A DNA stretch of 64,000 bases from Dyadobacter jejuensis (lineage in GTDB: Bacteria; Bacteroidota; Bacteroidia; Cytophagales; Spirosomataceae). The notes below the pieces were generated by a model, which saw only the letters and a program-made list of their open reading frames with translations, was not told the origin of the DNA and searched no databases. The position numbers were made by a program, and so were the translations under genes. Location: contig NZ_QGDT01000001.1 in the NCBI RefSeq assembly GCF_003149085.1, positions 248,001 to 312,000 of the forward strand, in the 5' to 3' direction. Positions 32,318 through 55,144 of this stretch are shown here, piece after piece; the stretch's first letter is position 1; every line of letters starts with the position of its first letter.

Positions 32318-32691
32318 ATTAACTTGGTATTTGGCTATAATTGGTTGAAAGTCAAAGAGCCCTAGCGTTCGGTGCTGTTGTTAGCCAATGAATATATATC
32401 CCTGAATTTCTGCTCCCCAGCGGCGGGTACCGTTCCGAAGCTGACCCATTTTGTCCTCCTTGCTGCCTGCGACGTCGCAGTGTTACAGCGCCGATCAAGT
32501 ATTTTAGTTAAGCAAACTGCTTTATAGTCATAATGTTTCTTCTTGCATGGGAAGAACTATCTAAGACTTTAACCCGACTGGTTCGAAGTGCAATCGGCGG
32601 TCCGTCTTTTCCTGGAAACGATTTTTTAGCTAATGGCTCATTGCCAATGGTGAATATGCTTAGACAATATCATACGTTTTACGCGCTCTTA
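32318..32691. other. unexplained intergenic patch of 374 bases
   Basis: No conserved gene is recognised. A 14-bp palindrome CTGCGACGTCGCAG sits at 32467-32480. On the minus strand the bases read AAGGAGGACAAA directly before an ATG and a 22-codon frame ending in TAA near 32382, unusual in a genome with few strong Shine-Dalgarno sites. The upstream extension of the hydrolase reading frame to 32533 lacks a plausible signal peptide. It may be the remnant of a mobile or repeated element. Confidence 0.4.
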
Positions 32692-33975
32692 ATGAAGATG
32701 GATAATTTTAAATCGAAGTGTTTTGTCCCAATTTTTAGTTTTGTTCTGTTGCTATGCGGTTGTGCTGTGGACGGTACTGCCCAATCCAACGCTGTTCATG
32801 ATGCAAATCAAAATCGAGCTGGGAATAACGAAGGGTTTTGGGACTCAAAGGTTTTGTTTGGAAAACCTGATTCCAAATCGCTCCAAATAAGCAGTGGGGT
32901 ACAGTCATTATTATTCAAAAGTGTCGATTATAAGGGCAAGTCAACCGAAGTTTTTGCCTATTATTCTGATCCCGATATGCTGAATGGGAAAACTTCACAG
33001 AAGAAATTTCCAGGGGTCGTTCTCCTACACGGCGGAGGGGGAAAGGCTTTTCAGGAATGGGTGGAAAAATGGGCTGCTGAAGGATACGCCGCCATTGCTA
33101 TTGATTTTGGAGGCAAAGACGGTAATGGGAATCGGTTAGAAAATGCTGGACCTGCGCAAGGTGCCGAGGAAAAGTTTACCAATATAGCAAATGGTCCCCT
33201 CACAGATGTCTGGACGTATCATGCTGTAGCGAGCAGTATTCTGGCTCATTCCTGGTTGCGAGCACAGCCCAAGGTCGACTCCTCCATGACTTTTGTAACT
33301 GGTATTAGCTGGGGGGGCTACCTCACTTGCATCGTTGGGTCGGTCGACCACCGATTTAAGGCGGCAGTACCTGTATATGGCTGTGGTTATTATGGCGAAT
33401 CCGATGTCTTTAAGAAAGACCTCAACCAGTTATCTGGTGGGTTTAGAGAGAAGTGGCTTCAATATTTTGATCCCTCCGTTTATTTGCCTCATAGTCAGGT
33501 GAAATTTTTGTTTATTAATGGCAATAAGGATCGGTTTTATAACGTCATTCCCTATTCTAAAAGCTATTCGCTAGTCAGCGAGAAGAATCGGCGTGTTTGT
33601 ATAAAACCAGATATGCTCCATAGCCACCCTAGAGGCTGGGAGCCATTGGAGATTCGTTCATTTTTTGATCATTTAGCGTACGGTTATGCCGACTTACCCT
33701 CTTTGAATGACATTAGAATGGGAGAAGGGAGTATTTCTGCCTCCTATAACGCTCCGGTCACGCTAGCCAATGCCAGCTTTTATTATACTTCGGATACCTT
33801 GTCGACGAATGAAAATAGGAAATGGCAGTCCGTAAAGGCAGAAATCGATCCGGACAGTAAAAAAATTAGCTGCAAAATGCCAGAAGAAGGGTTTGCATAC
33901 GGTTTCTTTTCTATAAAAGACCACCGTAGTGTGTCTGCTTCCAGTGAATTTGTGATCAATGGTCGCGTGGAGTAG
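32692..33975 (+). CDS. secreted alpha/beta hydrolase (dienelactone-hydrolase/acetyl-xylan-esterase-like lipoprotein)
   Basis: 427 residues from the ATG at 32692 (another Met two codons later); a lipobox LCGC ends the signal peptide. A catalytic triad can be proposed: Ser206 in GISWGG, Asp280 in NGNKDRF and His310 or His312 in LHSHPRG. The oxyanion region is LLHGGGGKAFQEW. The domain resembles esterases of the dienelactone hydrolase and acetyl-xylan-esterase group, and a C-terminal beta segment of about 90 residues follows. Cleavage of acyl or ester groups from plant or algal sugars is plausible, not proven. Codon use is A+T-richer than that of the neighbours, and the gene lies next to the odd patch, so transfer is possible. 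Confidence 0.85.
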   Translation: MKMDNFKSKCFVPIFSFVLLLCGCAVDGTAQSNAVHDANQNRAGNNEGFWDSKVLFGKPDSKSLQISSGVQSLLFKSVDYKGKSTEVFAYYSDPDMLNGKTSQKKFPGVVLLHGGGGKAFQEWVEKWAAEGYAAIAIDFGGKDGNGNRLENAGPAQGAEEKFTNIANGPLTDVWTYHAVASSILAHSWLRAQPKVDSSMTFVTGISWGGYLTCIVGSVDHRFKAAVPVYGCGYYGESDVFKKDLNQLSGGFREKWLQYFDPSVYLPHSQVKFLFINGNKDRFYNVIPYSKSYSLVSEKNRRVCIKPDMLHSHPRGWEPLEIRSFFDHLAYGYADLPSLNDIRMGEGSISASYNAPVTLANASFYYTSDTLSTNENRKWQSVKAEIDPDSKKISCKMPEEGFAYGFFSIKDHRSVSASSEFVINGRVE

Positions 33976-34219: not shown

Positions 34220-36307
34220 TTATTTATTAAAAGCCGCCTTGCCACTATCGAGGAAATCAGCAAAGTTCTGGGGATTTAGATCATAATTGATAGGCTTTAC
34301 AAGCAAATTCCCCTCGTGGTCGACCAAGCAATAATGCGGCTGAGCATTATTATTATATTTTACGATTTGTAAATCGGCATTCTGCGCCCCTATCGATTTC
34401 TTTACCTTATTGTCGTACGTAGAGGTGTACCATTCCGCCTCCGGAAGTTCCGTTTTATCATCTACATAAAGGGCTACTATCACATAGTCGTTTCGCAGGC
34501 GTTGAAGTACCGCCGGGTCCGACCATACCCTGGCTTCCATTTCCCGGCAGTTGACGCAGCCATGGCCGGTGAAGTCGATAAATACGGGTTTGTTGACCGT
34601 TTTGGCATAGGCCAGGGCCTCCTTAAGGTCAAAGAATCCGTCGAGCTCATGGGGCAGGTGAAACAAATCGGCATATTTTTTATCCGTCACCGTGCTAGGG
34701 CTAGCGGACCCTATGGCTCTTTTATTGAGGTCAAAATCGAGCGTCGACTGGGGAGGTAGATAACCCGCCAGCGCCTTCAGTGGGGCTCCCCACATACCCG
34801 GTATCATATAGACCACGAAGGTGAAGGTGATGATAGACATCAACAGCCGGGGTACGCTCACCTTTTCCAGGGGAGAGTCGTGGGGGGTACGGATTTTGCC
34901 CAATAGGTAAAAACCCAAAAGACCAAAAATAACAATCCAAAAGGCCAGGTATACTTCACGATCGAGCAGGTGCCAGTGGTATACCTGATCGGCAATGCTG
35001 AGGAACTTTAAGGCTAAAGCCAGCTCCAAGAACCCTAAAACTACTTTGACAGTATTGAGCCAGCCCCCCGACTTGGGTAGAGACTTGAGCCACTGTGGAA
35101 ATAAGGCGAACAAAGTGAAGGGGATAGCGAAGGCCGACGAAAATGCCGCCATGCCTACTATCGGTTTCAGTACTTCCCCGCCGGCCGAGGCTACTAACAG
35201 ACTCCCCACTATGGGTCCGGTGCAAGAAAAGGATACCAATACGAGGGTGAAGGCCATAAAAAATACCCCTGCATAGCCCCCTTGGTCGGCCTTTTGGTCC
35301 ATCTTATTGACCAGGCTACTCGGCAATACGATCTCGAAAAGTCCTAGAAACGAGAGTCCAAAAATAAAGAAAACAGCAAAAAACAGTACATTAGGGATCC
35401 AGTGGGTGCTTAAGAAATTGGCGAAAGCGGGACCGTTGATCCGTGAAACGACGGTTCCGATCAGCGTGTAAATAACCACAATAGACACCCCGTAAAGCAA
35501 GGCCTTAAATTTGCCTTTTTCCTGGTTGGTAAAGAAACTCACCGTCATTGGGATAATTGGGAATACACAAGGGGTTAGCAAAGCCACCAGCCCCGATAAA
35601 AACGCGGCCAAGGCAAAGCCCCAAAGGGATCCGCTCATAACAGAGTCGGTTGTTTCGGTGGTGGTGATTTCGTCTGCACGGGCGTCTGCAGGTGCTATTG
35701 CCTCATCGGCAGCGGCTAGGCTGTCGGAAGACGCCGCGGCGGGTTGGTTGGGCGCTTCTGCGGTGAGGGCCTCTTCGGTTGCTACGGGTTGTGAGCTGGT
35801 GCTTGGGGCTGCCGCTTCTGCCGGGGCTGTTACTTTTAGCCCACTAAACTCAAAATCGTCGCTCCCCGCTATACATAGGCCCGTCACATTGCTACAAGTC
35901 TGAAACTCCGAAGTACCTTTGATAATGGGCTTGTCTGAGCGTATTTTAACCGTTTGTTTGAACACCGCCTTACCGGTAAAGTATTTGACATCACCTCCCC
36001 ATACTTCTTCAAACTTCGTTTTGGGGTTTTGTGGCTTAAGCTTGCCTACCAACTCGAAGCTATCATTTTTTTCGAAGCTGAAGCTGGTGAGCATAGGGCC
36101 CAAATCGGGATCAAAATCGGAAGAATATAAATACCAATCTTTGTCGATGGTAGCCGTGAATATTAAATCGACTGTGCCTCCTTTTTCAACTGTGTTTTCA
36201 GAAAATGTGTAGGTCCATTGGGCCTTTGCCTTGTGAATTTGGGCGCTTACGGGCCTGCCCAGTAAGGATATACCGATTAGGAGGAGTAGGAAGAAACTGC
36301 GATTCAT
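34220..36307 (-). CDS. dsbD: protein-disulfide reductase DsbD
   Basis: 695 residues. A signal peptide is followed by an N-terminal DsbD-alpha-like domain (about 25-155), a low-complexity Ala/Ser/Pro/Glu linker (about 155-220), about eight membrane segments from 225 to 510 including the family Cys pair (LLTPCVFPIIPM and SFSCTGPIVGS), and a C-terminal thioredoxin-like domain with active-site CVNC near 585. DsbD passes electrons from cytoplasmic thioredoxin to periplasmic reductases and cytochrome c maturation. That fits the cytochrome c domain encoded nearby. The gene is divergent from argB. Confidence 0.93.
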   Translation of the reverse strand: MNRSFFLLLLIGISLLGRPVSAQIHKAKAQWTYTFSENTVEKGGTVDLIFTATIDKDWYLYSSDFDPDLGPMLTSFSFEKNDSFELVGKLKPQNPKTKFEEVWGGDVKYFTGKAVFKQTVKIRSDKPIIKGTSEFQTCSNVTGLCIAGSDDFEFSGLKVTAPAEAAAPSTSSQPVATEEALTAEAPNQPAAASSDSLAAADEAIAPADARADEITTTETTDSVMSGSLWGFALAAFLSGLVALLTPCVFPIIPMTVSFFTNQEKGKFKALLYGVSIVVIYTLIGTVVSRINGPAFANFLSTHWIPNVLFFAVFFIFGLSFLGLFEIVLPSSLVNKMDQKADQGGYAGVFFMAFTLVLVSFSCTGPIVGSLLVASAGGEVLKPIVGMAAFSSAFAIPFTLFALFPQWLKSLPKSGGWLNTVKVVLGFLELALALKFLSIADQVYHWHLLDREVYLAFWIVIFGLLGFYLLGKIRTPHDSPLEKVSVPRLLMSIITFTFVVYMIPGMWGAPLKALAGYLPPQSTLDFDLNKRAIGSASPSTVTDKKYADLFHLPHELDGFFDLKEALAYAKTVNKPVFIDFTGHGCVNCREMEARVWSDPAVLQRLRNDYVIVALYVDDKTELPEAEWYTSTYDNKVKKSIGAQNADLQIVKYNNNAQPHYCLVDHEGNLLVKPINYDLNPQNFADFLDSGKAAFNK

Positions 36308-37494: not shown

Positions 37495-38826
37495 ATGTCG
37501 AGTCGAAGTAGCCTTCTTTTCTTGTTGTTATTTTTATCGGGAAATGCGATGTCCCAAAAGGTCCCCGATTTCTATAAGGATGTACAGCCCATCATTCATG
37601 CCAATTGTGTGCCTTGCCATAGGGCAGGAGAGGCGGCGCCATTTCCGTTGGTGAGCTATGAAGATGTTCATAAGCGGACCAAATTTATCAAGAAGGTGGT
37701 CAGTTCGCGGTACATGCCGCCCTGGAAAGCCGACCAACATTATAATGAATTTGCCAACGACCGCTCCCTGACGGAGTCGGAGATCGGGACGCTGATGGCA
37801 TGGATAGACGGGGGCGCACCCAAGGGTAAGGTGGACCTTAAAGCAGAAAACGCTATTAGGGCCAGGGTCGATGCCGGCACGGCCTACAAGCGTAAGCCCG
37901 ATTTGACCCTACGAATGAAAGACGCTTTTGTAGTGAAAGGGGATGGGACAGAGCGCTTTGTGATGTTTAAGATCCCCTTCGATATTGCCTCGGAGGCCAA
38001 TGTAGAGGCCATAGAGTTTACTTCGAACAATAAGAAATTGGTGCATCATGCCAACTTCGCCATTCACCCCGTTAGCGATCCCGCTATCGACTTGCATGAT
38101 ACGGGCACGGTAGTGGACCTAAGCGGTCCCGACGCCGACCGGTATTATGAATGGGTGAAGTACAAAAAAGATATGACCTATTATGGGGGCTGGATCCCCG
38201 GGGCTACAGTAGAAACCTACCCTATAGACATGGGCTGGGTAATGCCTAAACGGGGGGTCATCCTGCTGACGGTCCATTTTGGGCCCTCTTCCCTCGATGC
38301 TGAAAGCTTGAATGGGATTAATGTTTTCTTTAAGGACAGCCCCATTAAGCGGAAGGTAAAAGTGATAAGCCTCGGGTCGGGAGGTATTGGTGAAAAGGAC
38401 ATAAGTCCTCCACTCATGATCTTTGCCAATGAGGTCATGTCGTTCCGACTGCGCATCGCCAACAACCAGCCCGACGTTTCTCTGTTGTACGCTTGGCCGC
38501 ATATGCACCAGTTGGGGAAGGAATTTAAGGCCTATGCTACCACCGCCGCCGGCGATACCATACGGTTGGTACATATCCCGGCTTGGGATTTTCGTTGGCA
38601 GGAAATCTATAAATATAAAAAGCCCCTTTTACTTCCTAAAGGCGCTGTGGTACATATAGAGGCGAGCTATGACAATACGACTGCCAACCCGATGAACCCC
38701 CATAGCCCTCCAGAGCTGGTGATGTCGACGGGCAATATGCGCAGCGACCAGGAGATGATGACCCTCATGCTGATGTATGTGGAGCGCGATCCTGACGACG
38801 ATAACCTGGTATTTCAGTGGCAATAA
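37495..38826 (+). CDS. cytochrome c fused to a PHM-like type II copper monooxygenase module
   Basis: 443 residues, signal peptide ending near MSQK. The first ~110 residues hold a heme c site, CVPCH at 38-42. The rest resembles the copper type II ascorbate-dependent monooxygenase fold (peptidylglycine alpha-hydroxylating monooxygenase, dopamine beta-monooxygenase). All six copper ligands have candidates: His184 and His185 in LVHHANF, His261 in TVHFGP, His336 and His338 in WPHMHQLG, and Met421 or Met422 in DQEMMTLM. An extracytoplasmic hydroxylase fed by its own cytochrome is inferred. It is first in a run with the FG-GAP protein (22 bases downstream) and a haloperoxidase-like gene. Confidence 0.82.
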   Translation: MSSRSSLLFLLLFLSGNAMSQKVPDFYKDVQPIIHANCVPCHRAGEAAPFPLVSYEDVHKRTKFIKKVVSSRYMPPWKADQHYNEFANDRSLTESEIGTLMAWIDGGAPKGKVDLKAENAIRARVDAGTAYKRKPDLTLRMKDAFVVKGDGTERFVMFKIPFDIASEANVEAIEFTSNNKKLVHHANFAIHPVSDPAIDLHDTGTVVDLSGPDADRYYEWVKYKKDMTYYGGWIPGATVETYPIDMGWVMPKRGVILLTVHFGPSSLDAESLNGINVFFKDSPIKRKVKVISLGSGGIGEKDISPPLMIFANEVMSFRLRIANNQPDVSLLYAWPHMHQLGKEFKAYATTAAGDTIRLVHIPAWDFRWQEIYKYKKPLLLPKGAVVHIEASYDNTTANPMNPHSPPELVMSTGNMRSDQEMMTLMLMYVERDPDDDNLVFQWQ

Positions 38827-38848: not shown

Positions 38849-41800
38849 ATGAGAATACTTGTACTCTTTATTTTCCTTTTTTCTGTAGGTTACCGGCTTA
38901 AGTCCCAGCCGCTTTTTACTAAGCTGAGGACCGAAGCTACAGGCCTCGACTTCGTCAATAAGATCGAAGAATCCGATTCCCTGCATATATTTCTTTACGA
39001 ATATTTGTACAATGGGAATGGTATAGGCGTCGGCGATTTTAATAGCGACGGGAAGCCCGATGTCTTTTTGTCGGGCAATACCGTGGCTAGCAAATTGTTT
39101 TTGAACCAGTCAGAAAATGGGACAATAGCCTTTAAAGACGTAACCAAGAAGGCCAAGGTGGATGGGAATGGGCGCTGGGCCACAGGAGTGAGCGTGGCCG
39201 ATGTGAATGGGGATGGACTCCTGGATATCTATGTATGTCATTCGGGGTTTTATAAGAAACTCTCCGATAAGAATAACCTGCTCTATATCAATCAGGGATT
39301 GAAAAAGGGGGTCCCGGTATTTAAAGAAATGGCCGTGGAAGCGGGCCTTCAGGCCACCGGTTCCCAGTCCACCCAGGCCGCTTTTTTCGACTACGATCGA
39401 GATGGGGACCTAGATATGTTTTTACTCAACCATTCCAACCACAGTGTCAATCCTTTTCTGAATACCAAGGAGATGAGGAGTACGCCGAACCCCTATTTTG
39501 GCAACCGACTCTTCGAGAATATTAGTGCAGGCTCCAAGCTCCAGTTTAAGGATGTTACCGCACATTCGGGTATTGTCAATAATGCCCTCAATTTTGGACT
39601 AAGCGTCATAGTCGCCGACATTAATCAGGATGGTTGGCCCGACCTGTATACCACCAGCGACTATACGGAGGTGGATTGCTACTACGTCAACAACCGCGAT
39701 GGGACCTTTACGGAGTCGCTTAAGAAGTCGTTTTCGCATGTCTCAAAGTTTTCGATGGGGGCCGATGTGGGGGATTTTAATAATGATGGCCTCCCCGACG
39801 TGTTCACCTTGGACATGCTTCCGGAGGACAATCGACGCCAGAAACTCTTAAAGGGGCCCGATATGTACGATCAATATCATTTGTTGCTCGACAGCGGTTA
39901 TTACCACCAGAACATGCGGAATATGCTGCATCTGAACCAGGGAATGGATGCGCAAGGGCAGGTACGGTTTAGCGAAATAGGGCAGATGGTAGGTATCTCA
40001 AATACCGACTGGAGCTGGGCCGGTCTGATGGCCGACTTTGATAATGACGGCTGGAAAGACCTGTTGGTTACCAATGGATATTTAAGAGACTTTACCAATA
40101 TGGATTTTCTTAAATATACCGTTTCCGACGAGCAGTTAAAAGCCGTTGCCCAGGGCAATCTTAATTTTAAGACCTACGATTTGGTAAAAAAGATGCCTTC
40201 CAATAAGCTGAGGAGTTATTTGTATCATAATCGGCAAGGAGAGAACGGGGAGTTGTTATTCGAGGATGTCTCCCAGAAATGGGGTTTCGATACCGAACAG
40301 GTGTCTAATGCCGCAGCCTATGCCGATTTCGATGGGGATGGAGATCTAGACTTGCTCATTTCCAATATCAATGAGCTCGTGTCGGTCTATCAAAATAGCG
40401 CCACCCAGAAATCAATCGTTCTGACCCTACAAGGGGAGGGAGCCAATACCCAAGCCTATGGCACCAAGGCCTGGGTGTATGCCCATGGGGGAGCTCAATA
40501 TGCCGAACTCTATCCCGTAAGGGGCTATCAGTCGACAGTAACCAGTCATTTGCATTTTGGCTTAGGCACGGCTACCAAAGCCGACTCTATACGGATCCTT
40601 TGGCCCTCCCAAAAACAAACCCTGCTATATGATGTGAGCCAAACGCGGCTTACGTTAAGTGAAAAAGAAGGCAAATCCTTGCCCACTAACGCCAAGCCAG
40701 CCCCCGTGGCCTTGGTAAAGGAGCTTCAGCCACGAGAACTGGGTTTGGATTTTATCCATCAGGAAAACGACTTTGTAGATTTTAAAGTGGAAGTACTCTT
40801 GCCTTACCAACTTTCAAAATTCGGGCCTGCCCTGGCCAAAGCCGATGTAAACGGAGATGGGCTCGAAGATGTGTTCTTTGGAGGGGCTGCCCATCAGTTT
40901 GGCGTACTCTATTTGCAGCTATCAGATGGGCGGTTTATGGCTAACGAACAGCAGCCATGGCGTGCTCATGTGGGGGCTGAGGAGGTCGATGCCTTGTTTT
41001 TTGATGCCAACGGGGACGGCCGCCCCGACCTGTATGTGGTGAGTGGAGGAAGTGAGTACGAAGACCAGGCCGCCGAATATCGCGATCATCTGTATATTAA
41101 TAGGGGGCAGGGGAATTGGAAAGAGGAGATATTGGCCTTGCCTGCTATGAAAAGCCCCAAAGAATGTATCACCACCGCCGATATAGACGGGGATGGTGAC
41201 CTCGACCTCTTCGTAGGGGGGCGTGCTATTCCGGGGGCCTTCCCTATGGCGGCTAGGAGCTATATACTTCGCAACGACAGCGATGAAAGCCACATTCGCT
41301 TTACCGATGTTACGGAAGCTTGGAGCCCCGCCCTTATGACTCCGGGTATGGTGACAGGCGCACAGTTTGTAAGGCTCGACTCCGATACCCTCCCCGACCT
41401 GATTCTTAGCGGGGACTGGATGAAAATTAGGACTTTTAAAAATACGGGAACCGCCATGGAGGAAATAGAGGCTACAGCCCTCCATGATACCGAGGGGCTT
41501 TGGGCCATGCTGGAACCCGTAGACATCGACGGGGATGGAGACCTGGATTTTGTTGTAGGCAATCTGGGACGTAACAACCAGTTTGCGGCTAGCATCGAAA
41601 AACCCATGGTCCTTTATTACGACGATTTCGACTCCAATGGACTGGTGGACCCCATCATGACTTATTTTATAGGGGAAACGAGCTTTCCAATGCTCTCCAG
41701 AGACGAGCTGCTGGACCAGATACCCGCCCTAAAAAAGAAATATACTACCTACCAATCTTTTGCTGATGCTACTATCGATTCCATTTTTGGACGCCAAGCC

Positions 41801-42187
41801 GTAGCCGATGCCCCGCGATTGGTATGTAAGACGCTGTCGAGTATCATTATAGAAAATAAAGGCGATTTTAATTTTGAGATTCATCAGTTGCCAGCCATGG
41901 CCCAGCTTTCCCGAATTAGTGGAATAGTGCCCTATGATGTGGATGGAGACCAGCGCCTCGATTTGTTTTTGGCGGGGAATTTTATGCCGTTGAGGGTACA
42001 GCTAGGCCCTTGCGATGCTTCTGTAGGTAATGTGCTGAAGCAAATAGCCCCGTTCCAGTTCGAAGCCCTTCCTTCCTCCCAATCGGGCTTTTGGGCGGGG
42101 GGAGATGTCCGGAGCATGATCGGCCTGGGGAGGAGAATCCTTGTCGGAAGAAATGACGACCAACCACTATTATTTGAAATCAAATGA
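38849..42187 (+). CDS. FG-GAP/VCBS repeat protein with UnbV-ASPIC domain (CRTAC1 family)
   Basis: 1112 residues from the ATG at 38849, which begins the signal peptide; the longer frame to 38777 is rejected. At least thirteen calcium-binding loops of the form D-x-(N/D)-x-D-G-x-x-D are visible, for example DFNSDGKPD, DVNGDGLLD, DFDGDGDLD and DANGDGRPD, in two groups. An ASPIC/UnbV domain (about 520-610: LTLQGEGANTQAYGTKAWV, then FGLGTATKADSIRILWP) lies between them, so two propellers with a central domain are likely. Such proteins are secreted, calcium-stabilised and of unknown role; in this locus it may bind substrate or partner the enzymes. It overlaps the next gene by ATGA. Confidence 0.9.
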   Translation: MRILVLFIFLFSVGYRLKSQPLFTKLRTEATGLDFVNKIEESDSLHIFLYEYLYNGNGIGVGDFNSDGKPDVFLSGNTVASKLFLNQSENGTIAFKDVTKKAKVDGNGRWATGVSVADVNGDGLLDIYVCHSGFYKKLSDKNNLLYINQGLKKGVPVFKEMAVEAGLQATGSQSTQAAFFDYDRDGDLDMFLLNHSNHSVNPFLNTKEMRSTPNPYFGNRLFENISAGSKLQFKDVTAHSGIVNNALNFGLSVIVADINQDGWPDLYTTSDYTEVDCYYVNNRDGTFTESLKKSFSHVSKFSMGADVGDFNNDGLPDVFTLDMLPEDNRRQKLLKGPDMYDQYHLLLDSGYYHQNMRNMLHLNQGMDAQGQVRFSEIGQMVGISNTDWSWAGLMADFDNDGWKDLLVTNGYLRDFTNMDFLKYTVSDEQLKAVAQGNLNFKTYDLVKKMPSNKLRSYLYHNRQGENGELLFEDVSQKWGFDTEQVSNAAAYADFDGDGDLDLLISNINELVSVYQNSATQKSIVLTLQGEGANTQAYGTKAWVYAHGGAQYAELYPVRGYQSTVTSHLHFGLGTATKADSIRILWPSQKQTLLYDVSQTRLTLSEKEGKSLPTNAKPAPVALVKELQPRELGLDFIHQENDFVDFKVEVLLPYQLSKFGPALAKADVNGDGLEDVFFGGAAHQFGVLYLQLSDGRFMANEQQPWRAHVGAEEVDALFFDANGDGRPDLYVVSGGSEYEDQAAEYRDHLYINRGQGNWKEEILALPAMKSPKECITTADIDGDGDLDLFVGGRAIPGAFPMAARSYILRNDSDESHIRFTDVTEAWSPALMTPGMVTGAQFVRLDSDTLPDLILSGDWMKIRTFKNTGTAMEEIEATALHDTEGLWAMLEPVDIDGDGDLDFVVGNLGRNNQFAASIEKPMVLYYDDFDSNGLVDPIMTYFIGETSFPMLSRDELLDQIPALKKKYTTYQSFADATIDSIFGRQAVADAPRLVCKTLSSIIIENKGDFNFEIHQLPAMAQLSRISGIVPYDVDGDQRLDLFLAGNFMPLRVQLGPCDASVGNVLKQIAPFQFEALPSSQSGFWAGGDVRSMIGLGRRILVGRNDDQPLLFEIK

Positions 42188-43527
42188 CAAAACCATCTAT
42201 CAACTTAGGACTGCAGCTACCCCGTTGTATTGGCGTGATAGGGCTACTTTTGGCCTTCGTTACGGTGGGAAAGGCCCAGGGTCAAGGCGGTACCGCTCTG
42301 ATGCACCGGGCAGAGAAGAACTTGACAAGGACCATTGTGAGAGATATTTTTTCTCCTCCAGTGGCTAGTCGGGTTTATCTGTATGCCAATGTAGCCGCTT
42401 ATGAAGTGTTGGTGCTTGGAGATACATCCTACCATAGCCTGCAAGGGCAGATCGGCGGGTTTCCCGCCATAGAGCCTCCCGAGCAGACGGTCGACCTCCC
42501 TTTGGCCGCTTTATACGCTTTTTGGAAGACAGGGGCCGCCTTGGTTTTTTCAGAAAAGATACTCGATGATAGCCTCCAGGTAATCCTGAAGGAAAGGGTG
42601 GTACCCGACTCTGTTACCTATGCCCACTCTATACGATTCGGCGAGCGGGTGAGTCGGGCCATTTTGGAATGGGCCTCTAGCGATTTTTATGCCGAAACGC
42701 GTAAAAAAAGACGATACCGCTATGCCAAGCAGCCAGGGAAATGGACCCCCACTCCTCCGGCCTATATGGATGCTATAGAGCCTAACTGGAACATGATCAG
42801 GCCGGTGGCCCTCGATTCGGCTAGCCAGTTTAAGCCTGCGCCTCCTCCGGCCTTTAGCCTCGACACTACCAGCCGTTTTATGCAAGAGGTGTATGAGGTG
42901 TACCGGGTTACCCAGCGGTTGGACCCAGAGCAGGTAGCAGTGGCCAGCTTTTGGGATTGTAATCCATTTTTCCTAAATACCCAAGGGCATTTGAATTTTG
43001 CTACTAAAAAGCTTTCCCCTGGAGGACATTGGATGTCTATAGCTGGGCAGGTGGCCCAGTCCGCTCATTTGGGTTGGACGGCCACGAGCGCTACCTATTT
43101 GATGACCTCCATCGCCTTATTCGATGGTTTTATAAGCTGTTGGGACGAAAAATACCGGAGTCAGTTGATCAGGCCCGAAACCTTTATTAATGCGCATATC
43201 GACGAATCGTGGCGGCCTGCATTGCAAACGCCCCCTTTTCCTGAGTATACGAGTGGGCATAGTGTCATATCTACCGCGGCAGCCGTTGTGCTTACCGCCC
43301 TTATTGGCGACGACCATGCATTTGACGACCATACCGAAGTGGAGTATGGGCTACCCGTTAGGAGCTTTACCTCCTTCCGACATGCTTGCAATGAAGCGGC
43401 CATAAGTCGGCTGTATGGAGGTATTCATTACCGCTCGGCTATTGAGCAGGGGCAGTTGCAAGGGGATTTGGTAGGACGGCAAGTTTTAGAAAAAATTCGA
43501 CTAAAATCGAATATTTCTTTAAACTGA
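42184..43527 (+). CDS. vanadium-dependent haloperoxidase-like PAP2 enzyme
   Basis: 447 residues. A signal peptide ends near GKAQG. The vanadate/phosphate site residues of the PAP2-haloperoxidase superfamily are present: Lys and Arg in KYRSQLIRP (K-X6-RP, near 322-330), the His in YTSGHSV (near 358), and Arg and His in SRLYGGIHYRS (near 408-415). The Asp that usually follows (H-X3-D) is Ala. The helical N-terminal half also fits bacterial vanadium haloperoxidases. It could oxidise halides with peroxide, or be a phosphatase; the sequence cannot decide. The start overlaps the stop of the FG-GAP gene by four bases, indicating coupled translation. Confidence 0.85.
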   Translation: MTKPSINLGLQLPRCIGVIGLLLAFVTVGKAQGQGGTALMHRAEKNLTRTIVRDIFSPPVASRVYLYANVAAYEVLVLGDTSYHSLQGQIGGFPAIEPPEQTVDLPLAALYAFWKTGAALVFSEKILDDSLQVILKERVVPDSVTYAHSIRFGERVSRAILEWASSDFYAETRKKRRYRYAKQPGKWTPTPPAYMDAIEPNWNMIRPVALDSASQFKPAPPPAFSLDTTSRFMQEVYEVYRVTQRLDPEQVAVASFWDCNPFFLNTQGHLNFATKKLSPGGHWMSIAGQVAQSAHLGWTATSATYLMTSIALFDGFISCWDEKYRSQLIRPETFINAHIDESWRPALQTPPFPEYTSGHSVISTAAAVVLTALIGDDHAFDDHTEVEYGLPVRSFTSFRHACNEAAISRLYGGIHYRSAIEQGQLQGDLVGRQVLEKIRLKSNISLN

Positions 43528-43765
43528 AGGGGCGTAAAATGCCTTTATTTTGGTTTTTGGGCAGTTTTGCTTGGTGGGTTTCATCTTAAGAATAAATATT
43601 TATTAAGTTTTTTTAATAACTATTAAATCTATGTTAAATAAAATACATATATTTGGTACTTCATTATAATGAATGCCAAATATTGGGCAATCTGCCCCTA
43701 ATACCTTTTTAAATATTTGTATTCTAACTTTAAACACCCAATTTTTTTAACTAACCAGGATTACC
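43528..43765. other. A+T-rich leader and promoter region of the susCD-like pair
   Basis: 238 bases rich in A and T runs, with a single good -7 element at 43648-43655. Nothing else is recognised; no regulator, sigma/anti-sigma pair or riboswitch was seen. Confidence 0.5.
43648..43655 (+). promoter_or_regulatory. possible -7 element for the SusC/SusD operon
   Basis: TATATTTG matches TAnnTTTG on the plus strand, giving a leader of about 105 bases before the SusC ATG. The -33 region is not well conserved. Confidence 0.35.
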
Positions 43766-46700
43766 ATGAGACAAAAGTTTACAACTTTATTAGGTCTGGT
43801 ATCACTTTTTGTACTTCTATTAGGAAGTACCTGGAGTATGGCCCAAGACAAAAAGACCGTCAGTGGGACGGTGCTTGATGAGGAGCAAAATCCTCTACCC
43901 GGCGTGTCGTACCTCGTAAAGGGTACGAATAATGGCGGAGCTACGGATGTGAATGGTAAGTTCACTGTATCGATAGGTTCCAGCTCAGCCGTAATGGTAT
44001 TTTCGTCTATCGGATATGTTACCAAGGAGGTAGCAGTAGGAAATGCCAGTATACTCACCGTTAACTTGGCGGAAGATCTAAAAACCCTTAACGAAGTAGT
44101 AGTAACTGGTTTTGGTATGGCTACCGAAACTCGGAAATTGACGTATTCGGCCCAAACCGTAGAAGGGAAGGATCTGACCCGTACCAATAATGCCAACTTG
44201 GTGAATGCCCTACAAGGTAAAGTAGCCGGGGTGATGATCAACCAAGGTGCCAGCGGTCCTATGTCCTCTTCTCGGATTCGGATTCGTGGTAATGCTTCCT
44301 TGAGCTCTAATACTCAGCCTCTATTCGTGGTAGATGGAGTATTGATACGTCCTGGTACTACCGGGGCCGATTCTTGGGGTGGAGCGCAGGATTTCGGAAA
44401 TATTATGAAGAACATCAACCCCGATAATATCGAGTCGATGAGCGTATTGAAGGGTTCCGCTGCGAGTTCTTTGTATGGTTCTGAGGCTTTGAATGGGGTG
44501 GTGTTGATTCAGACCAAAAAAGGTCGTGAAACCAAAGGTTTGGGAGTTTCCTATAACCATTCCTCTTCTTTTGAAAAGGCTTATCGGATCGTCGACTTAC
44601 AGAACCAATTTGGTGCTGGTTTGAGTCCTACATTTGAAAAAGACGCCAATGGTGTGGATATGGTAGACGCCAATAACTGGTTCTACTCTTATGGTCCTGA
44701 GTTCAATGGGCAGCAAGTGAAAGATTTGGATGGACGTATGATAGAATGGAAGGCCAATGACCCTATTAGCTTTTTCAACACGGGTAAGTACATCAACCAT
44801 AATATTGCTGTAGATGGTGGTAACGAGCGCTCGAGCTTCCGGGTATCTTACTCCAATCTGTTCAATTCGTCGGTGATGCCCTCAGGGACGGAAATGAAAA
44901 GGAATAACTTTAACATTCGTGCGACCCAGAAAATTGGTAAAATTATCGATTTGGATGTAAGCGCCGATTATACCAGCAACAATTTGCTGAATCCTACTAA
45001 CCAAGGTAGTAGCTATAACCCGGTTTTCAAATTTGTGTATTATCGTCCCCGTAGTTTGGATATCGACTATTGGATGAATAATTACATAGATCCTAACGTA
45101 GGAGGCCGTAGAAGGGGTGCGAATGATCCCTATAGCCTCACCGACTTTATGTGGGAGATCAATGAAAGGAAGAGAATGCGTAACGAGAAAATTTTCCGTG
45201 GTAACATCGACCTTAAAGCTCAGATCACTCCTTGGCTGACGGGTTTACTTCGTAGTAACTTGCAGAACGAGATCTATACGGGTGAATATCTGAAACGTGG
45301 TGATAACGCACTTTTCTCGGGCAATGATGAATACAGTACGTATGCAACCAACAATAACCAATACCGGGTACAAGGGTTGTTTACTGCCAACAAGAGCTTC
45401 GGTTCCGACTTTGAGACGAGCTTGACCGTGGGGGGAGAGACCAACAAAATCAATGGTGGACGTCAGTTTACCAATGGAACTAGTGGTGGCCTTAGAATTC
45501 CTGAAGTCTATTCTCTTTCCAATTCTATCAACGTAGCTTCTTCTAGTGCTAGCTTAATACCTTCCAAAAGAACGGATGCAGTGTACGCTTATGGAGATGT
45601 TACCTACAAAGGCTTGCTTACTTTGAATGCCAGCTACAGGAGAGACTGGACTTCTACCTTGACTTATAAAAATGGAACTGGCGATTGGTCTTACGATTAC
45701 CCTTCTGTGGGTCTGTCATGGATCGCCACAGAGTCCTTTAAGGATACACCCAATTGGTTAAGCTTCGGTAAGGTTCGTGCCAGCTTTGGTTATACAGGTG
45801 GTGATACCGACGCATGGTCTACCAACAGAACGGGTATATACAATCCTTCAGGAAATTATACCTTGCCAGATGGTTCAGTACTTCCATCCTACGGTTTCCG
45901 CGACAGAACTTTGCCAAATGCTAATTTGAAAAACCGTTTGGCACGTGAGATAGAATTTGGTACCGATATTCGGTTCTTCAAAAACCGTTTAGGTATTGAC
46001 TTTACTTTCTACAATAAATTGACGACTAATGAGATCTTGACGGTAAGTGTACCTTCGGAGTCGGGCTTAACGGGTCGTATTATCAATGCGGGTAAGATTA
46101 GAAACCGGGGTATAGAGATATTATTGACGGCTAATCCTATCAAAACGGATAAGTTTAACTGGAATACTACTTTCAACTTCTCTAGAAATAGAAACAAGAT
46201 TCTTGAATTGGTAGACGGAGTGGATAGCTATGAGCTAAGCTTGGCCTTTGGTGCGGATGTACGCTCGATTGCCCGAGTGGGTGGCGACTACGGTACCATT
46301 TCCTCATCGTATGCCTATGCCTTATACCAAGCCAAAGATGCAAGCGGAGCCGAAATTAGCAGCCCATCCAATGGACAGCGGGTAATTGGGGCGTCTAGTA
46401 ATGCTACCGACGGCTACCCTACTTACTTACGGAGCGGTTCTTATGGACAGGGTTCAAGAGACCTAGGAACCATGCTTGAGAAATTCTTATTGAGTAACTC
46501 TAACTCGGTTTCTTATGGCGATTTCAATCTGTCGGTACAGGTAGATGCGAAAATTGGTGGTTTGATGGCCTCTGGTACGCACCAATATGGCTCGAGCAAC
46601 GGTAGCTTGAAAAACAGCTTACCGGGTAGAAATGCAGCCCTTGGTGGAGTTACCTTTACCGATGCCGCCGGAAATACCCGCGATGATGGTATTATCCCCG

Positions 46701-47122
46701 AAGGTGTGTTGGCCGACGGATATAAAGTGAATGTGGACGGAACGGATATCGACCTAGGAGGCATGCAGTATTCTGAGGCCGTAGCCAACGGATACCTTAC
46801 TCCGATACCAGCCTATGCCTATTATGAAAACTTGACCCAATGGGGATCAGGAATTCGTGAGTACTCTGTTTTTGAAAACTCATGGGTTTCTCTACGCGAA
46901 GTTTCTGTAGGGTATACGGTTCCTGCCAATATCATCAACAAGTACAAAATTCAATCGCTACGTGTAGGATTGGTAGGACGTAACCTGACTTACCTCTATA
47001 TGACTGCCAAGGACGGTATAAACCCGGAAGGTCTTAAGAGTAACCGTGCCGGTGAATTTGCTGAATACGGAGGGGCGCCTTTCACAAGAAACCTTGGTTT
47101 TTCTATTAACGTAGGCTTCTGA
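43766..47122 (+). CDS. SusC/RagA-family TonB-dependent outer-membrane transporter
   Basis: 1118 residues. A signal peptide ends near SMAQD. It is followed by the CarboxypepD-like regulatory domain (VSGTVLDEEQNPLPGVSYLV, about 33-110), the SusC-type hinge NEVVVTGFGM, the plug (residues about 140-240: LVNALQGKVAGVMINQ, RIRIRGNASLSS) and a 22-stranded barrel with a C-terminal NLGFSINVGF. SusC transports bulky ligands held by its SusD lid, driven by TonB-ExbBD. No glycoside hydrolase, sulfatase or regulator is adjacent. The preceding oxidative genes suggest a non-standard substrate, which is inference. Confidence 0.95.
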   Translation: MRQKFTTLLGLVSLFVLLLGSTWSMAQDKKTVSGTVLDEEQNPLPGVSYLVKGTNNGGATDVNGKFTVSIGSSSAVMVFSSIGYVTKEVAVGNASILTVNLAEDLKTLNEVVVTGFGMATETRKLTYSAQTVEGKDLTRTNNANLVNALQGKVAGVMINQGASGPMSSSRIRIRGNASLSSNTQPLFVVDGVLIRPGTTGADSWGGAQDFGNIMKNINPDNIESMSVLKGSAASSLYGSEALNGVVLIQTKKGRETKGLGVSYNHSSSFEKAYRIVDLQNQFGAGLSPTFEKDANGVDMVDANNWFYSYGPEFNGQQVKDLDGRMIEWKANDPISFFNTGKYINHNIAVDGGNERSSFRVSYSNLFNSSVMPSGTEMKRNNFNIRATQKIGKIIDLDVSADYTSNNLLNPTNQGSSYNPVFKFVYYRPRSLDIDYWMNNYIDPNVGGRRRGANDPYSLTDFMWEINERKRMRNEKIFRGNIDLKAQITPWLTGLLRSNLQNEIYTGEYLKRGDNALFSGNDEYSTYATNNNQYRVQGLFTANKSFGSDFETSLTVGGETNKINGGRQFTNGTSGGLRIPEVYSLSNSINVASSSASLIPSKRTDAVYAYGDVTYKGLLTLNASYRRDWTSTLTYKNGTGDWSYDYPSVGLSWIATESFKDTPNWLSFGKVRASFGYTGGDTDAWSTNRTGIYNPSGNYTLPDGSVLPSYGFRDRTLPNANLKNRLAREIEFGTDIRFFKNRLGIDFTFYNKLTTNEILTVSVPSESGLTGRIINAGKIRNRGIEILLTANPIKTDKFNWNTTFNFSRNRNKILELVDGVDSYELSLAFGADVRSIARVGGDYGTISSSYAYALYQAKDASGAEISSPSNGQRVIGASSNATDGYPTYLRSGSYGQGSRDLGTMLEKFLLSNSNSVSYGDFNLSVQVDAKIGGLMASGTHQYGSSNGSLKNSLPGRNAALGGVTFTDAAGNTRDDGIIPEGVLADGYKVNVDGTDIDLGGMQYSEAVANGYLTPIPAYAYYENLTQWGSGIREYSVFENSWVSLREVSVGYTVPANIINKYKIQSLRVGLVGRNLTYLYMTAKDGINPEGLKSNRAGEFAEYGGAPFTRNLGFSINVGF

Positions 47123-47157: not shown

Positions 47158-48855
47158 ATGAAAACATTTAATAAAATAATATTTTCAACTTCCCTACTCT
47201 TGTTAGGGGGGCTGACGGCTTGTGACAAACAAGACTTTGTGGACATTAACGTGGATCCCGATGCCTTGTCGAGCATACCACCCGAAAACCAGTTTTTGAA
47301 TGCTTCCCGTGGAATTCATGGTCAAGATTTTGAGGCGTTCTACGACTTCTATACCCGAATTATGCCTTGGATGCAATATGCCACCGGTGTTAACGGGAAC
47401 CAAGGTGCTTTCACCACCAACATGTCGAATTTTTCGTCGCGGTATGGTGCCTTGTATAGCAACGGAGCCCAGCTTTACGATATAGAGAAACTGGTAGAAA
47501 GAATGGAGGCCGACGTGCAGCCACGCTACGTACATATGATTCGCATTGCTAGAATCTTAAAGGCCTATTATGCCTTTTATGTATCGGATATCTATGGCAG
47601 CATTCCCTATTCAGAGGCCTTTCAGGCACGTTACGGAGGCACCTTAACCCCAGCATATGATACCCAGCAGGCGTTATTTGCTAGGCTCGACGCTGAGATC
47701 AAGGAAGCCGTTTCGGTATTGAAACAGACTCAATCGGCTCCTCAGGTAACCCTAGGAGACTATGATGGCTATTATAACGGTAGCAGCACGCAATGGGTGA
47801 AAGCAGGAAATGCCCTTCGACTAAAAATCGCCCTAAGACAGATCAAGGTCGATCCTTCTACGGCTACTAGCATCATCAATGAGATCGTGGCCATGCCCGA
47901 AACCGACCTGATGACTACCCAAGCCGATGGATGGGTGTTTACTGCCAACCAGTCGTTTACTTCTGGAGGTAACTGGAACCCAGCTAGCCTCAGGGCCACT
48001 AAGCCTATGGTCGATTTTATGTATGAAAATAAAGATCCACGACTCGACGCTTTCGTGGCTCCCAATACTTATACTCAGGCCAATATCGATTTGCTGATTG
48101 CCGACAACCAACTGCCCGCGGGTACTACCGAAGCTTCACGCCGGTACCTAGGGAGCTTCACCAGCCCCGATCAGGCGAGTAGTCCAGCCATTAAGGCGCA
48201 ATACTATGCAACCAGAACGGTACGCTCCGGCGACCTTTCTATCGTGGTCGATACCTTGAGCTATTTGCAGCCTCGCTTATTCCGCCCATCGGAAACGGAC
48301 GCAAATGGTGTTGTGGGTAGCGGGCTGGTATTTATACCCGTTATTACCTATTCTGAGTATTGCTTTATGCGTGCCGAGATCGCGGCTCGTGGAATAGGCT
48401 CAGGAACCAAAGATTGGTACGAAAAAGGTGTGAAAAGCTCTATTGACTGGTATGATATGATCGGAATCGATTCGAAACTGACCAACTATACTCCAGTGAA
48501 AGAAGCGGAGGTAGAGGCTTATATGCAGATGCCGGCAGTAGCCTTCGACGCATCCAAGGCCTTGGATCAGATAGCCTCACAAGCCTATCTGCATTTCTTA
48601 AAGCAACCTGCTGAAGGTTGGGCACTTTGGAAACGTACCGGATTCCCCAATGCCACCTCGTCGGTAATGTTGCCTGTACTTACCAATAATAACGCCGTAT
48701 TGACCCTGCCACGCAGAGCTCCCTTGTCGTTATTGAACGAAAATGACCAGAACTATACCAACCAAAAGGCGGCTTACGATGCCATGGCTACTTTGCCAGG
48801 CTTCGGTAAGGATCCTCAGGATGCGACTGGTAGAGTATGGTGGGATAAACCATAA
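47158..48855 (+). CDS. SusD/RagB-family outer-membrane lipoprotein
   Basis: 565 residues. The signal peptide ends at LTAC (Cys22), the lipidation site. The protein is of the SusD-like_2 type: helical TPR-like core, with DVNVDPDALSSI-like N-terminal block, IRIARILKAYYAFYVSDIYGSIPYSEA and the late ITYSEYCFMRAEIAARG segment. It forms the substrate-binding lid of the SusC partner encoded 35 bases upstream. The ligand is not predictable from sequence. A hairpin terminator follows at 48891-48923, overlapping the end of nuoN. Confidence 0.94.
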   Translation: MKTFNKIIFSTSLLLLGGLTACDKQDFVDINVDPDALSSIPPENQFLNASRGIHGQDFEAFYDFYTRIMPWMQYATGVNGNQGAFTTNMSNFSSRYGALYSNGAQLYDIEKLVERMEADVQPRYVHMIRIARILKAYYAFYVSDIYGSIPYSEAFQARYGGTLTPAYDTQQALFARLDAEIKEAVSVLKQTQSAPQVTLGDYDGYYNGSSTQWVKAGNALRLKIALRQIKVDPSTATSIINEIVAMPETDLMTTQADGWVFTANQSFTSGGNWNPASLRATKPMVDFMYENKDPRLDAFVAPNTYTQANIDLLIADNQLPAGTTEASRRYLGSFTSPDQASSPAIKAQYYATRTVRSGDLSIVVDTLSYLQPRLFRPSETDANGVVGSGLVFIPVITYSEYCFMRAEIAARGIGSGTKDWYEKGVKSSIDWYDMIGIDSKLTNYTPVKEAEVEAYMQMPAVAFDASKALDQIASQAYLHFLKQPAEGWALWKRTGFPNATSSVMLPVLTNNNAVLTLPRRAPLSLLNENDQNYTNQKAAYDAMATLPGFGKDPQDATGRVWWDKP

Positions 48856-48890: not shown

Positions 48891-48923
48891 AAAGAGGCAG
48901 GCCAGTTGGTCTGTCTCTTTTTT
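48891..48923 (+). terminator. intrinsic terminator after the SusC/SusD pair
   Basis: AAAGAGGCAGGC (48891-48902) pairs with GTCTGTCTCTTT (48909-48920), with two G-U pairs. It is followed by three more T residues, giving a six-T run that includes the stem's last bases. Confidence 0.75.
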
Positions 48924-50379
48924 AATATACGCTGGTTGTACCGCCCATTTGTAAGTCTTTCAAATAGCCTATCAAAGACTCGGGAAAAACTCCCAATCCT
49001 AAGATAAACAGTGCCAACAAGGATAGCATGACCAGGCTGAGGACCAAGAAATAAGGGAAGGCGGTCTTTGGTAATGCCCCCGTGGTAGTCCCCCCTTTCA
49101 ATAAGCTGTTGATGACCCGTAAATAATAGTAAATACCCAGAATGCTACCTAGTACGAGTACCAAAGCCAGGGCCCAATAATTATTTTGAATGGCGGCAGC
49201 CAATAGATAAAATTTGCCAGTGAAGCCTACCGTGAGGGGGATACCGGCCAGCGATAGCATGGCCAGTCCAAGGATGCTAGCTTGTAAGGGGCTTTGCCAA
49301 AAAAGTGAGGTGTAAGAGGCCAATTCTTCCGCCTCTTCGGTGCCATCGGAGCGTACGGCCATAATGCCGAATGCAGCCAAAGTGCTGATCAGATACGCCG
49401 ACAAATAAAAACTCATGGCAGGGAGTGAAAGAGGACTATTGGGGACAAAGGCAACGAGCAGGTACCCAAAATGGGCAATAGAGGAATAAGCGAGTAAGCG
49501 TTTCAAATTCTTTTGTTGAAGCGCCAAAATATTCCCTAGCAGAATAGATACCATCGCCAGAACGACCAAGCTGGCACTCAGTACATGGAACCGAAGTCCA
49601 TCAATACTAGTCAGGAACCGAAAGGTAACGGCCAGCACTCCGCCCTTCGAGGCCGTGGCTATGAAGGCGGTAACAGGCAGCGGTGCTCCTTGGTATACAT
49701 CGGCCGCCCACATATGAAAGGGTACTATGGCGAGTTTGAAGCCTATGCCTACCATCATCATGCCTATTCCGAGTAGGAATAGTGCCGGTAGGTCGGTTTC
49801 TAATGCTAAGGAATGGGCGATAAGCGAAAAGGACATGGAGCCAGTTTGGACATATATAAGGGCCATACCGAATAATAGAAAGGCAGAAGAAAAGGCGGCT
49901 AAAATAAGGTACTTAATGCCTGCTTCAATGGCTCGCTGCCGGGATCTCAAGTAGGCGATGAGCGCATAAAGTCCTATTGTAAGAATCTCCAGACCTAGGA
50001 ATAGAGACACGAAGTGCTGGCTAACGGCGAGTATACAGGCTCCCAACGTGCAAAGAAATAGGAGGACATAATACTCCTTTGGTCCTTCTTCTTTGCCTTC
50101 GAAATATACATAAGAAATAATATTGACGACTAAGGCGGAGAAGACGATAAGCGCCATCATATAAACCCCAAAGGAGTCTATCAGAAGGAGCGGAGCTATG
50201 GCATAGGGTAAGGTTACTGGGATTAAGAAAAGGGAAAGGAAAGAGGTAAGGAACAGGAATAAGCTTGCCATTTGGATGACTCTATGGCTTTGGTTGGCCA
50301 CAATGAGCATCATGACCAGCACGGCAGCGATGGAGAGAATCAGCAGGGGAAGCAAAGCAAGGAAATCATTAGGGGCCAT
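48922..50379 (-). CDS. nuoN: NADH-quinone oxidoreductase subunit N
   Basis: 485 residues, about 14 membrane segments; antiporter-like proton-pumping subunit. The conserved charged residues in the core lie in GLEILTIGLYALIAYLRS and the FKLAIVPFHMWAADVYQGAP segment. It is the last gene of the operon; its start overlaps nuoM by 11 bases. Confidence 0.96.
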   Translation of the reverse strand: MAPNDFLALLPLLILSIAAVLVMMLIVANQSHRVIQMASLFLFLTSFLSLFLIPVTLPYAIAPLLLIDSFGVYMMALIVFSALVVNIISYVYFEGKEEGPKEYYVLLFLCTLGACILAVSQHFVSLFLGLEILTIGLYALIAYLRSRQRAIEAGIKYLILAAFSSAFLLFGMALIYVQTGSMSFSLIAHSLALETDLPALFLLGIGMMMVGIGFKLAIVPFHMWAADVYQGAPLPVTAFIATASKGGVLAVTFRFLTSIDGLRFHVLSASLVVLAMVSILLGNILALQQKNLKRLLAYSSIAHFGYLLVAFVPNSPLSLPAMSFYLSAYLISTLAAFGIMAVRSDGTEEAEELASYTSLFWQSPLQASILGLAMLSLAGIPLTVGFTGKFYLLAAAIQNNYWALALVLVLGSILGIYYYLRVINSLLKGGTTTGALPKTAFPYFLVLSLVMLSLLALFILGLGVFPESLIGYLKDLQMGGTTSVY

Positions 50380-53766: not shown

Positions 53767-53787
53767 TGGTTTTTTGTTTAGGTATTG

Positions 53788-54096
53788 CTAGCCGTTCATC
53801 TCTTTTAGATTGTCGATATCCAGCGACTTGTGTAAATGGTAAATCTGAAGGATAAGCGATAACCCAATGGAGACTTCAGCTGCTGCCATGGCCAGTATAA
53901 AAATAAACATGACTTGGCCGTCGGGTTGCCCCCAATGGGAGCCTGCGGCTATAAAGGCTAGGCCGGCAGCATTGAGCATGATCTCCACCGACAGGAGCAT
54001 AAAGAAGATGTTTTTGCGCATCATCACTCCAGCTACTCCTATCGTAAAGAGCAGGCCTGCTAACAAGAGTACGTTATCTATGGAGGCGGTTGTCAT
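53788..54096 (-). CDS. nuoK: NADH-quinone oxidoreductase subunit K
   Basis: 102 residues, three membrane helices. MLLSVEIMLNAAGLAFIA holds the conserved buried Glu (corresponding to Glu36 in E. coli), and MAAAEVSIGLSLILQI the second (Glu72). It overlaps nuoJ by four bases. Confidence 0.97.
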   Translation of the reverse strand: MTTASIDNVLLLAGLLFTIGVAGVMMRKNIFFMLLSVEIMLNAAGLAFIAAGSHWGQPDGQVMFIFILAMAAAEVSIGLSLILQIYHLHKSLDIDNLKEMNG

Positions 54097-54626: not shown

Positions 54627-54628
54627 GA

Positions 54629-55144
54629 TTAAGGCAATATTTGATGAATATCTACAGGAGGATTTTCGTTAGTTCCTCCACCTTTGGGTTTGATTCCGGA
54701 GTCCACTCCAGCAACTTTATAATAATTATAGCCCGGGTATTTTCCTTGGCTGTCGATGAGCAGGTCTTCTTTTTCATACACCAGGTTCTGACGGTTGTAC
54801 TCCGCCATCTCGAAGTCGGGGAGTAGCTGAATGGCGTAAGTGGGGCAGGCCTCCTCGCAATACCCGCAGAAGATGCATCTGGAAAAATTGATTCGGAAAA
54901 ATTCGGGGTAGCGTCGTCCCTGCTCGTCTTCGGTGGCCTGCAAAGAGATGCAGTCTACAGGGCAGGCTGCCGCACATAAGTAGCAGCCGACACAGCGCTC
55001 ACCCATGTCGGGGTCGCGGGTGAGCACAATGCGCCCCCTCCATCGGGGATGCAAAGGAACCCGCTCCTCGGGGTATTGGATCGTTTCCCTTTTGCTAAAT
55101 AAATGCAGAAATGTGATGGCCATACTTCTCAATAGACTAAACAT
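54629..55144 (-). CDS. nuoI: NADH-quinone oxidoreductase subunit I
   Basis: 171 residues. Two [4Fe-4S] ferredoxin motifs carry clusters N6a and N6b: Cys51, 54, 57, 61 ([12 protein letters not shown]) and Cys90, 93, 96, 100 ([12 protein letters not shown]). It passes electrons towards N2. It is 12 bases after nuoH. Confidence 0.97.

Follow-up and report, generated by a model that had tools for sequence, protein, structure and literature searches.

The window, which is the whole stretch of 64,000 nucleotides from Dyadobacter jejuensis that was analysed, encodes a protein of 443 residues in which a probable signal peptide is followed by a heme c domain and by a copper core of the type found in PHM and DBH. 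On the same strand this gene is followed by genes for a CRTAC1-like protein, a haloperoxidase-like protein and a SusC/SusD pair. The features, all on the plus strand, are as follows.

37495..38826, +, coding sequence of the 443-residue protein: signal peptide, heme c domain and two-lobed PHM/DBH-type copper core (AF2 model, Foldseek and VIA)
37495..37557, +, probable signal peptide for periplasmic export, residues 1-21, MSSRSSLLFLLLFLSGNAMSQ, read by eye; a helix of lower pLDDT covers residues 5-15
37606..37620, +, CVPCH motif for attachment of heme c, residues 38-42, invariant in the alignments of 20 and 80 sequences
37714..37716, +, M74 of the invariant MPP motif (80 of 80 sequences), candidate sixth heme ligand
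38044..38049, +, H184-H185, equivalent to the first two CuH ligands (DBH H262, H263; PHM H107, H108); invariant, in HMM register with DBH
38275..38277, +, H261, equivalent to the third CuH ligand (DBH H333; PHM H172); invariant, in HMM register with DBH
38500..38508, +, H336-M-H338, equivalent to the CuM histidines (DBH H412, H414; PHM H242, H244); invariant, in HMM register with DBH
38755..38757, +, M421, equivalent to the CuM thioether ligand (PHM M314, DBH M487), from the VIA end points and a common EM motif
38849..42187, +, CRTAC1-like protein with FG-GAP repeats and UnbV/ASPIC (Pfam FG-GAP_3 6.6e-71, UnbV_ASPIC 6.9e-18)
42184..43527, +, PAP2 / vanadium-haloperoxidase-like protein (Pfam PAP2 3.1e-11, VCPO_2nd weak)
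43528..43546, +, terminator-like hairpin, from a consensus scan only, in which chance alone would account for about 8 sites of this kind in the region
43766..47122, +, SusC-type TonB-dependent outer-membrane transporter (Pfam Plug, TonB barrel)
47158..48855, +, SusD-type surface lipoprotein (Pfam SusD-like_2 2e-53)

The residues named in the original prediction (CVPCH, H184-H185, H261, H336-x-H338 and M421) are at the claimed positions of the protein, whose open reading frame spans exactly 37495-38826 (+). H261 occurs in the context TVHFG and M421 in QEMM, and the only cysteines are residues 38 and 41, both in CVPCH. The CRTAC1-like open reading frame is listed from 38777, which gives a 50-base overlap with the preceding gene; its start is likely the in-frame ATG at 38849, 22 bases past the stop of that gene. 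The start of the haloperoxidase-like gene overlaps the CRTAC1-like stop by 4 bases, and the hairpin at 43528..43546 would end a three-gene operon of the heme-copper protein, the CRTAC1-like protein and the haloperoxidase-like protein. The genes at 48922-63019 (minus strand), recognised from their sequences, form an ordinary operon for NADH-quinone oxidoreductase (complex I).

Fold and copper ligands of the core

A single-sequence phmmer search of the PDB with the 443-residue protein gives no match, and DBH is reached by profiles only. The matches to Pfam are weak, with 14.5 bits for Cu2_monoox_C (cut-off 23, residues 331-398) and 15.8 bits, also below the cut-off of 27, for Cytochrome_CBB3 (residues 31-80), and NCBIfam gives weak cytochrome-type matches only. 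Two alignments were used as profiles: A1, with 20 sequences, where the relatives are 24-58% identical to the 443-residue protein, and A2, with the best 80 of at least 584 related stretches, which were obtained and confirmed in a scan of genome contigs. In hmmsearch both profiles find human dopamine beta-hydroxylase (DBH, PDB entry: 4zel), with E 2.1e-9 for A1 and E 2.9e-5 for A2, and in both alignments the VHH, VHY and HxH motifs, which hold five of the ligands, are in register. The copper ligands of DBH are H262/H263, H333 and H412/H414 (PMC4846438), the ligand numbers used here being the printed chain count with an offset of 39.

The AF2 model of the protein, calculated with A2 as input, has a pLDDT of 93.6 and a pTM of 0.88. 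When this model is used as the query in Foldseek, every one of the first 31 hits is a PHM or DBH structure, with PHM as the best match (E 1.5e-13). In VIA, DBH is matched with Z 23.2 (282 residues, 3.0 Å) and PHM with Z 16.9-21.5, the next, unrelated fold is PNGase F with Z 7.5, and the aligned region of the full model is mainly 133-435. Both searches therefore give only PHM and DBH, followed by a gap, as matches for the two-lobed PHM catalytic core fold. The sixth ligand is located from the ends of the VIA superpositions, where model residues 430, 431, 433, 434 and 435 are paired with PHM residues 323, 324, 326, 327 and 328, and model residue 430 is paired with DBH residue 496. As these offsets are constant, M421 falls on Met314 of PHM and on Met487 of DBH (the PHM numbering was checked on chain 5wm0; SSDEM of PHM is 310-314).

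In the original prediction, the PHM fold was guessed from the spacing of motifs, and the residues were taken as the ligands of the two copper centres of PHM. The guess is borne out by the profile, AF2, Foldseek and VIA results, the predicted structure matching DBH and PHM and not an unrelated fold, and all six residues align onto copper ligands. The histidine pair and single histidine of CuH and the HxH and methionine of CuM are at equivalent positions when considering the HMM register, the VIA superpositions and the invariance described below. It is very probable that the PHM/DBH fold and the six-ligand set are present.

Conservation of the family and its heme c domain

In A1, 32 columns are invariant, including the six putative copper ligands, the heme cysteine pair with its histidine, and M74. 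The six copper ligands, CxxCH and M74 are also invariant in A2 (the best 80 of at least 584), where M421 is missing once, in a sequence that runs off the contig end (L109). This invariance across 20 and then 80 sequences shows that the residue pattern is not due to chance. Within A1, each of the 20 sequences matches PF03712 with an E value of at most 0.1 (best 1e-9), and nine match PF01082.

Cytochrome_CBB3 is matched by 15 of the 20 A1 members, and when the A1 profile is searched against the PDB, the heme region of hydrazine synthase alpha is matched at E 0.016. In the heme c domains of both the Cytochrome_CBB3 family and hydrazine synthase alpha there is likewise a CxxCH, followed by an MPP motif and helices. 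The pattern of an exported mono-heme cytochrome, i.e. CxxCH with a downstream methionine, a signal peptide and assembly genes, is also seen here: cytochrome c assembly proteins are encoded in the D. jejuensis genome, and M74 would form the bond to the heme iron. It had also been claimed that CVPCH precedes the copper ligands, and in all relatives inspected the heme motif is indeed ahead of the core. A heme c motif is found in every PHM-type sequence inspected, save one (L021) whose N-terminus is lost at a contig end, and the heme c domain is, as judged from these sequences, a constant part of the family, being present in all members of A1 and A2. Divergent, lipoprotein-like relatives of the PHM type (L116, L119 and L126) have a CX4CH motif (CATSGCH or CAISGCH) instead of CxxCH.

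The best 80 of the at least 584 related stretches have Bacteroidota-type titles throughout, and the closest among the matches listed is from Dyadobacter bucti (79%). A Pfam match to PF01082/PF03712 over the cut-off is found in 17 of 198 sampled Bacteroidota genomes, and in a search of the phylum 39 of 296 genomes are matched, many of these via the heme region only. At E 1e-30 or better, 48 of 291 genomes of the order of D. jejuensis have a match, as do eight of the 14 genomes of the genus (its own counted). From this patchy presence the gene is seen to be accessory; a tblastn search of plasmids gave no match to it. Half of the A1 members (L009, L011-L020) have a C-terminal tail for type IX secretion, and from these tails it is likely that in some relatives the heme-copper protein is sent to the surface. 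Three Chitinophaga-type loci (L044, L047 and L051) have two copies each (e.g. at 6667 and 7980 of L044); the copies are adjacent in L044 and L051, which suggests duplication and possible specialisation. The family is large, bacterial and apparently unstudied.

Gene neighbourhood and the redoxin partner

In the loci of the best 80 of at least 584 matches, SusC is found near the gene in 37, SusD in 34, the CRTAC1-like gene in 12 and the haloperoxidase-like gene in nine. The SusC protein of the window is 50-69% identical to the SusC proteins linked to the heme-copper protein in Dyadobacter, Runella, Siphonobacter, Ohtaekwangia and Pedobacter, whereas among the many SusC-like matches within its own genome none is closer than 38%. 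When considering 35 loci, the identities to the window of the heme-copper protein and of SusC rise together (Spearman 0.93), to which species relatedness contributes. From these sequence comparisons, the nearest relatives are seen to share an orthologous SusC/SusD pair beside the gene, and some of them also have the CRTAC1-like and haloperoxidase-like genes.

In Pedobacter- and Chitinophaga-type loci, 16 of the 99 proteins encoded near the gene are ROK regulators and 13 are GH29 fucosidases, which hints at a sugar-bearing substrate. Neither a GH29 nor a ROK gene was found beside the gene in the window, the 12 GH29 matches of the genome all being elsewhere, and a glycan substrate therefore stays a lead. 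Genes for alpha/beta-hydrolase-like proteins (esterase or S9 type) are also seen near the gene, at 11261-13804 of L038, at 1472-3946 of L059 and at 32533-33975 of the window. These genes, of which the one in L038 lies between GH29 fucosidases, may point to a substrate that is esterified or glycosylated.

A protein of about 195 residues of the AhpC-TSA/Redoxin families is encoded near the gene in 54 of the 80 loci (the best 80 of at least 584). In 39 of the 41 same-strand pairs that were measured, the spacing between the two genes is -56 to +28 bases, mostly with the redoxin upstream, and this spacing suggests translational coupling. In two loci (L104 and L022) a single chain is encoded, in which the redoxin is an N-terminal fusion ahead of the heme c and PHM parts. 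Among 53 redoxin sequences, C66 of the CPxC/S motif and the C-terminal GC (C192) are invariant, and the second cysteine of CPxC is a cysteine in 41 of the 53 only. The model of the redoxin (pLDDT 91.9) is similar to thioredoxin-like proteins and to those of the ResA type. A copper chaperone of the Sco type is less likely, no Sco being among the top 50 model matches listed.

Most likely, the redoxin helps the maturation of its partner, either by keeping the CxxCH thiols reduced for heme attachment or by delivering copper. Since the 443-residue protein has no thiols other than those of CxxCH, it is simplest to assume a role in heme attachment, and on the basis of the model thiol chemistry is preferred over copper delivery. 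The redoxin homologue of D. jejuensis itself is encoded at C1:312144-312584 (L115:2142-2738, minus strand), 26 kb downstream of the heme-copper gene and just past the window; it has CPIT in place of CPxC and keeps the C-terminal GC. It adjoins an argH-like gene, and the heme-copper gene adjoins an amino-acid kinase gene (argB-like). A DsbD-type thiol:disulfide interchange protein is encoded nearby at 34220-36307 (minus strand), as is also the case in D. bucti (L032); it might act on the redoxin or in the attachment of heme, or its presence could be due to chance.

Electron source and comparison with known systems

In the established chemistry of PHM and DBH, electrons are received at CuH, and both O2 activation and hydrogen abstraction take place at CuM. 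For the protein of the window, a corresponding sequence of events can be proposed. The chain would be exported by its signal peptide, heme would be attached at CVPCH, with M74 as the probable sixth ligand, and copper would be bound at CuH (H184, H185 and H261) and at CuM (H336, H338 and M421). Electrons of the respiratory chain would then pass via periplasmic carriers to the heme and, one at a time, to CuH, and would move on to CuM once O2 and substrate are bound, where a copper-oxygen species would hydroxylate a C-H bond of the substrate. In the nearer relatives the substrate might enter through the dedicated SusC/SusD pair. A monooxygenase function, with hydroxylation as the presumed reaction, is probable. 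That the heme c serves as electron donor in place of ascorbate, with electrons flowing towards copper within the chain, is fairly likely. The combined reading, in which the protein is an exported monooxygenase with two coppers and the PHM/DBH fold, carries its metals and heme and is reduced through the heme c of its own chain, is the one that we favour with some confidence.

The invariant heme c motif suggests the cytochrome route instead of ascorbate. The proposal of an in-chain cytochrome that replaces ascorbate meets no contradiction and is plausible, as cytochrome c assembly genes are present and no ALO-type gene for ascorbate synthesis was found in the D. jejuensis genome. PHM is an ascorbate-dependent enzyme. 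DBH is ascorbate-dependent as well (PMC4846438). Given this precedent in both enzymes and a copper core that is complete by itself, it is conceivable that the monooxygenase uses ascorbate or another diffusible reductant and that the heme c is there for docking, redox sensing or structure, and even if ALO is lacking, ascorbate from an external source, or some other small reductant, could serve a bacterium as the donor. However, the invariance of CxxCH and M74 equals that of the copper ligands (best 80 of at least 584) and a CX4CH motif is retained in the divergent relatives, both of which point to a need for the heme; together with the missing ALO gene this makes the ascorbate-type reading unlikely.

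Mono-copper LPMOs can work as peroxygenases, driven by H2O2 after a priming electron, and the operon neighbour of the vanadium-haloperoxidase type might draw on a common H2O2 pool if the heme of the present protein gave only the electron that primes copper to Cu(I) and its oxidant were H2O2 in place of O2. This is improbable, since the second copper site, the source of the second electron in the O2-driven chemistry of PHM and DBH, is fully conserved, and since the haloperoxidase-like gene, whose halide chemistry is itself putative, is found in only nine of the 80 loci (best 80 of at least 584). In many periplasmic heme c fusions, such as the quinohemoprotein dehydrogenases, the heme is the electron exit. 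By analogy, the copper core could act as an oxidase or dehydrogenase of a metal ion, thiol or phenol, from which the heme exports electrons to the respiratory chain; no enzyme of the PHM/DBH fold is known to us to work in this way, however, and the His2Met site of CuM, which binds O2 in PHM, is intact, so that this reverse flow is very improbable. Finally, the substrate-binding residues of PHM are not conserved, as would fit a fold relative with a binding or structural function, or with other metals in its sites; yet exactly the six copper ligands are invariant among relatives that are 24-58% identical, which argues for a working two-copper site and makes this reading very improbable.

Some observations speak against the favoured reading of a heme-reduced monooxygenase: SusC/SusD is present at part of the family only (SusC in 37 of the best 80 of at least 584 loci), the redoxin of D. 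jejuensis is 26 kb off, not beside the gene, and the scores of the 443-residue protein are below the Pfam cut-offs. When extended to the family, this reading would describe a widespread bacterial class of ascorbate-independent hydroxylases of the PHM fold, in which heme c is the obligatory entry to CuH, maturation is by a redoxin that is often coupled or fused, and one large branch imports its own substrate through SusC/SusD; this is put forward tentatively, at somewhat less than even probability. The fold and the copper set are already known, and in the open-access literature no description was found of the constant fusion to heme c, of the redoxin as a partner or of the link to SusC/SusD. 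Neither a bacterial fusion of heme c and PHM nor its gene neighbourhood was found reported there; subscription papers and preprints were outside this scope, so the absence proves little. PHM and DBH are textbook two-copper enzymes in which the supply of electrons by ascorbate and the long-range transfer from CuH to CuM are hard to time. A heme in the same chain would be both an optical probe and a defined donor, by which each electron step could be followed directly. PHM-type proteins would be shown to be common in bacteria (at least 584 related stretches), the link to nutrient uptake would offer a route to the reaction, and there would be a bearing on the origin of animal hormone and neurotransmitter enzymes.

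Among the known systems, human DBH (4zel) is the best match in both the profile searches and VIA, with the ligands of CuH and CuM in register, and in both proteins an extra N-terminal domain is ahead of the catalytic core. In DBH this is a DOMON domain, in which no heme is seen; DBH also has disulfides and, at its C-terminus, a domain for dimerisation, and its donor is ascorbate (PMC4846438). The 443-residue protein, in contrast, has a heme c domain and is without a dimerisation domain and without cysteines for disulfides: its N-terminus is short, helical and bears CxxCH, and the chain ends just past the core, so that it is not a DBH in the strict sense.

Rat PHM (6ala, 1phm, 1sdw) has the same fold and the same six ligands, with M421 on Met314. 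The residues R240, N316 and Y318 of PHM, which are the anchors of the peptide-glycine (substrate carboxylate), are replaced by W334, T423 and M425, and an arginine at position 334 occurs in no sequence of A1 (20) or A2 (best 80 of at least 584). Q170 of PHM is replaced by T259, glutamine being found here in about half of A1. The core disulfides of PHM are absent too, and 42 of the 80 family members (best 80 of at least 584) have no cysteine beyond the heme pair. When compared in this way the protein has neither the peptide anchors nor the core disulfides and, judging from its residues, is not a PHM in the strict sense; its substrate need not be a peptide. Peptide amidation as the reaction is set aside, because the anchors are missing.

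In Pfam, PF01082/PF03712 are the copper type II, ascorbate-dependent monooxygenases. The 443-residue protein is below the curated cut-off of this family, and the ascorbate implied by the family name is putative for the protein and its relatives. The pair of cellobiose dehydrogenase (CDH) and LPMO is a precedent for an extracytoplasmic copper centre that activates oxygen and is supplied with electrons by a cytochrome. The LPMOs differ in being mono-copper enzymes of an unrelated fold, and the heme of CDH is b-type and on a separate protein. In its fold, the DOMON domain of DBH is itself related to the CDH cytochrome (PMC4846438).
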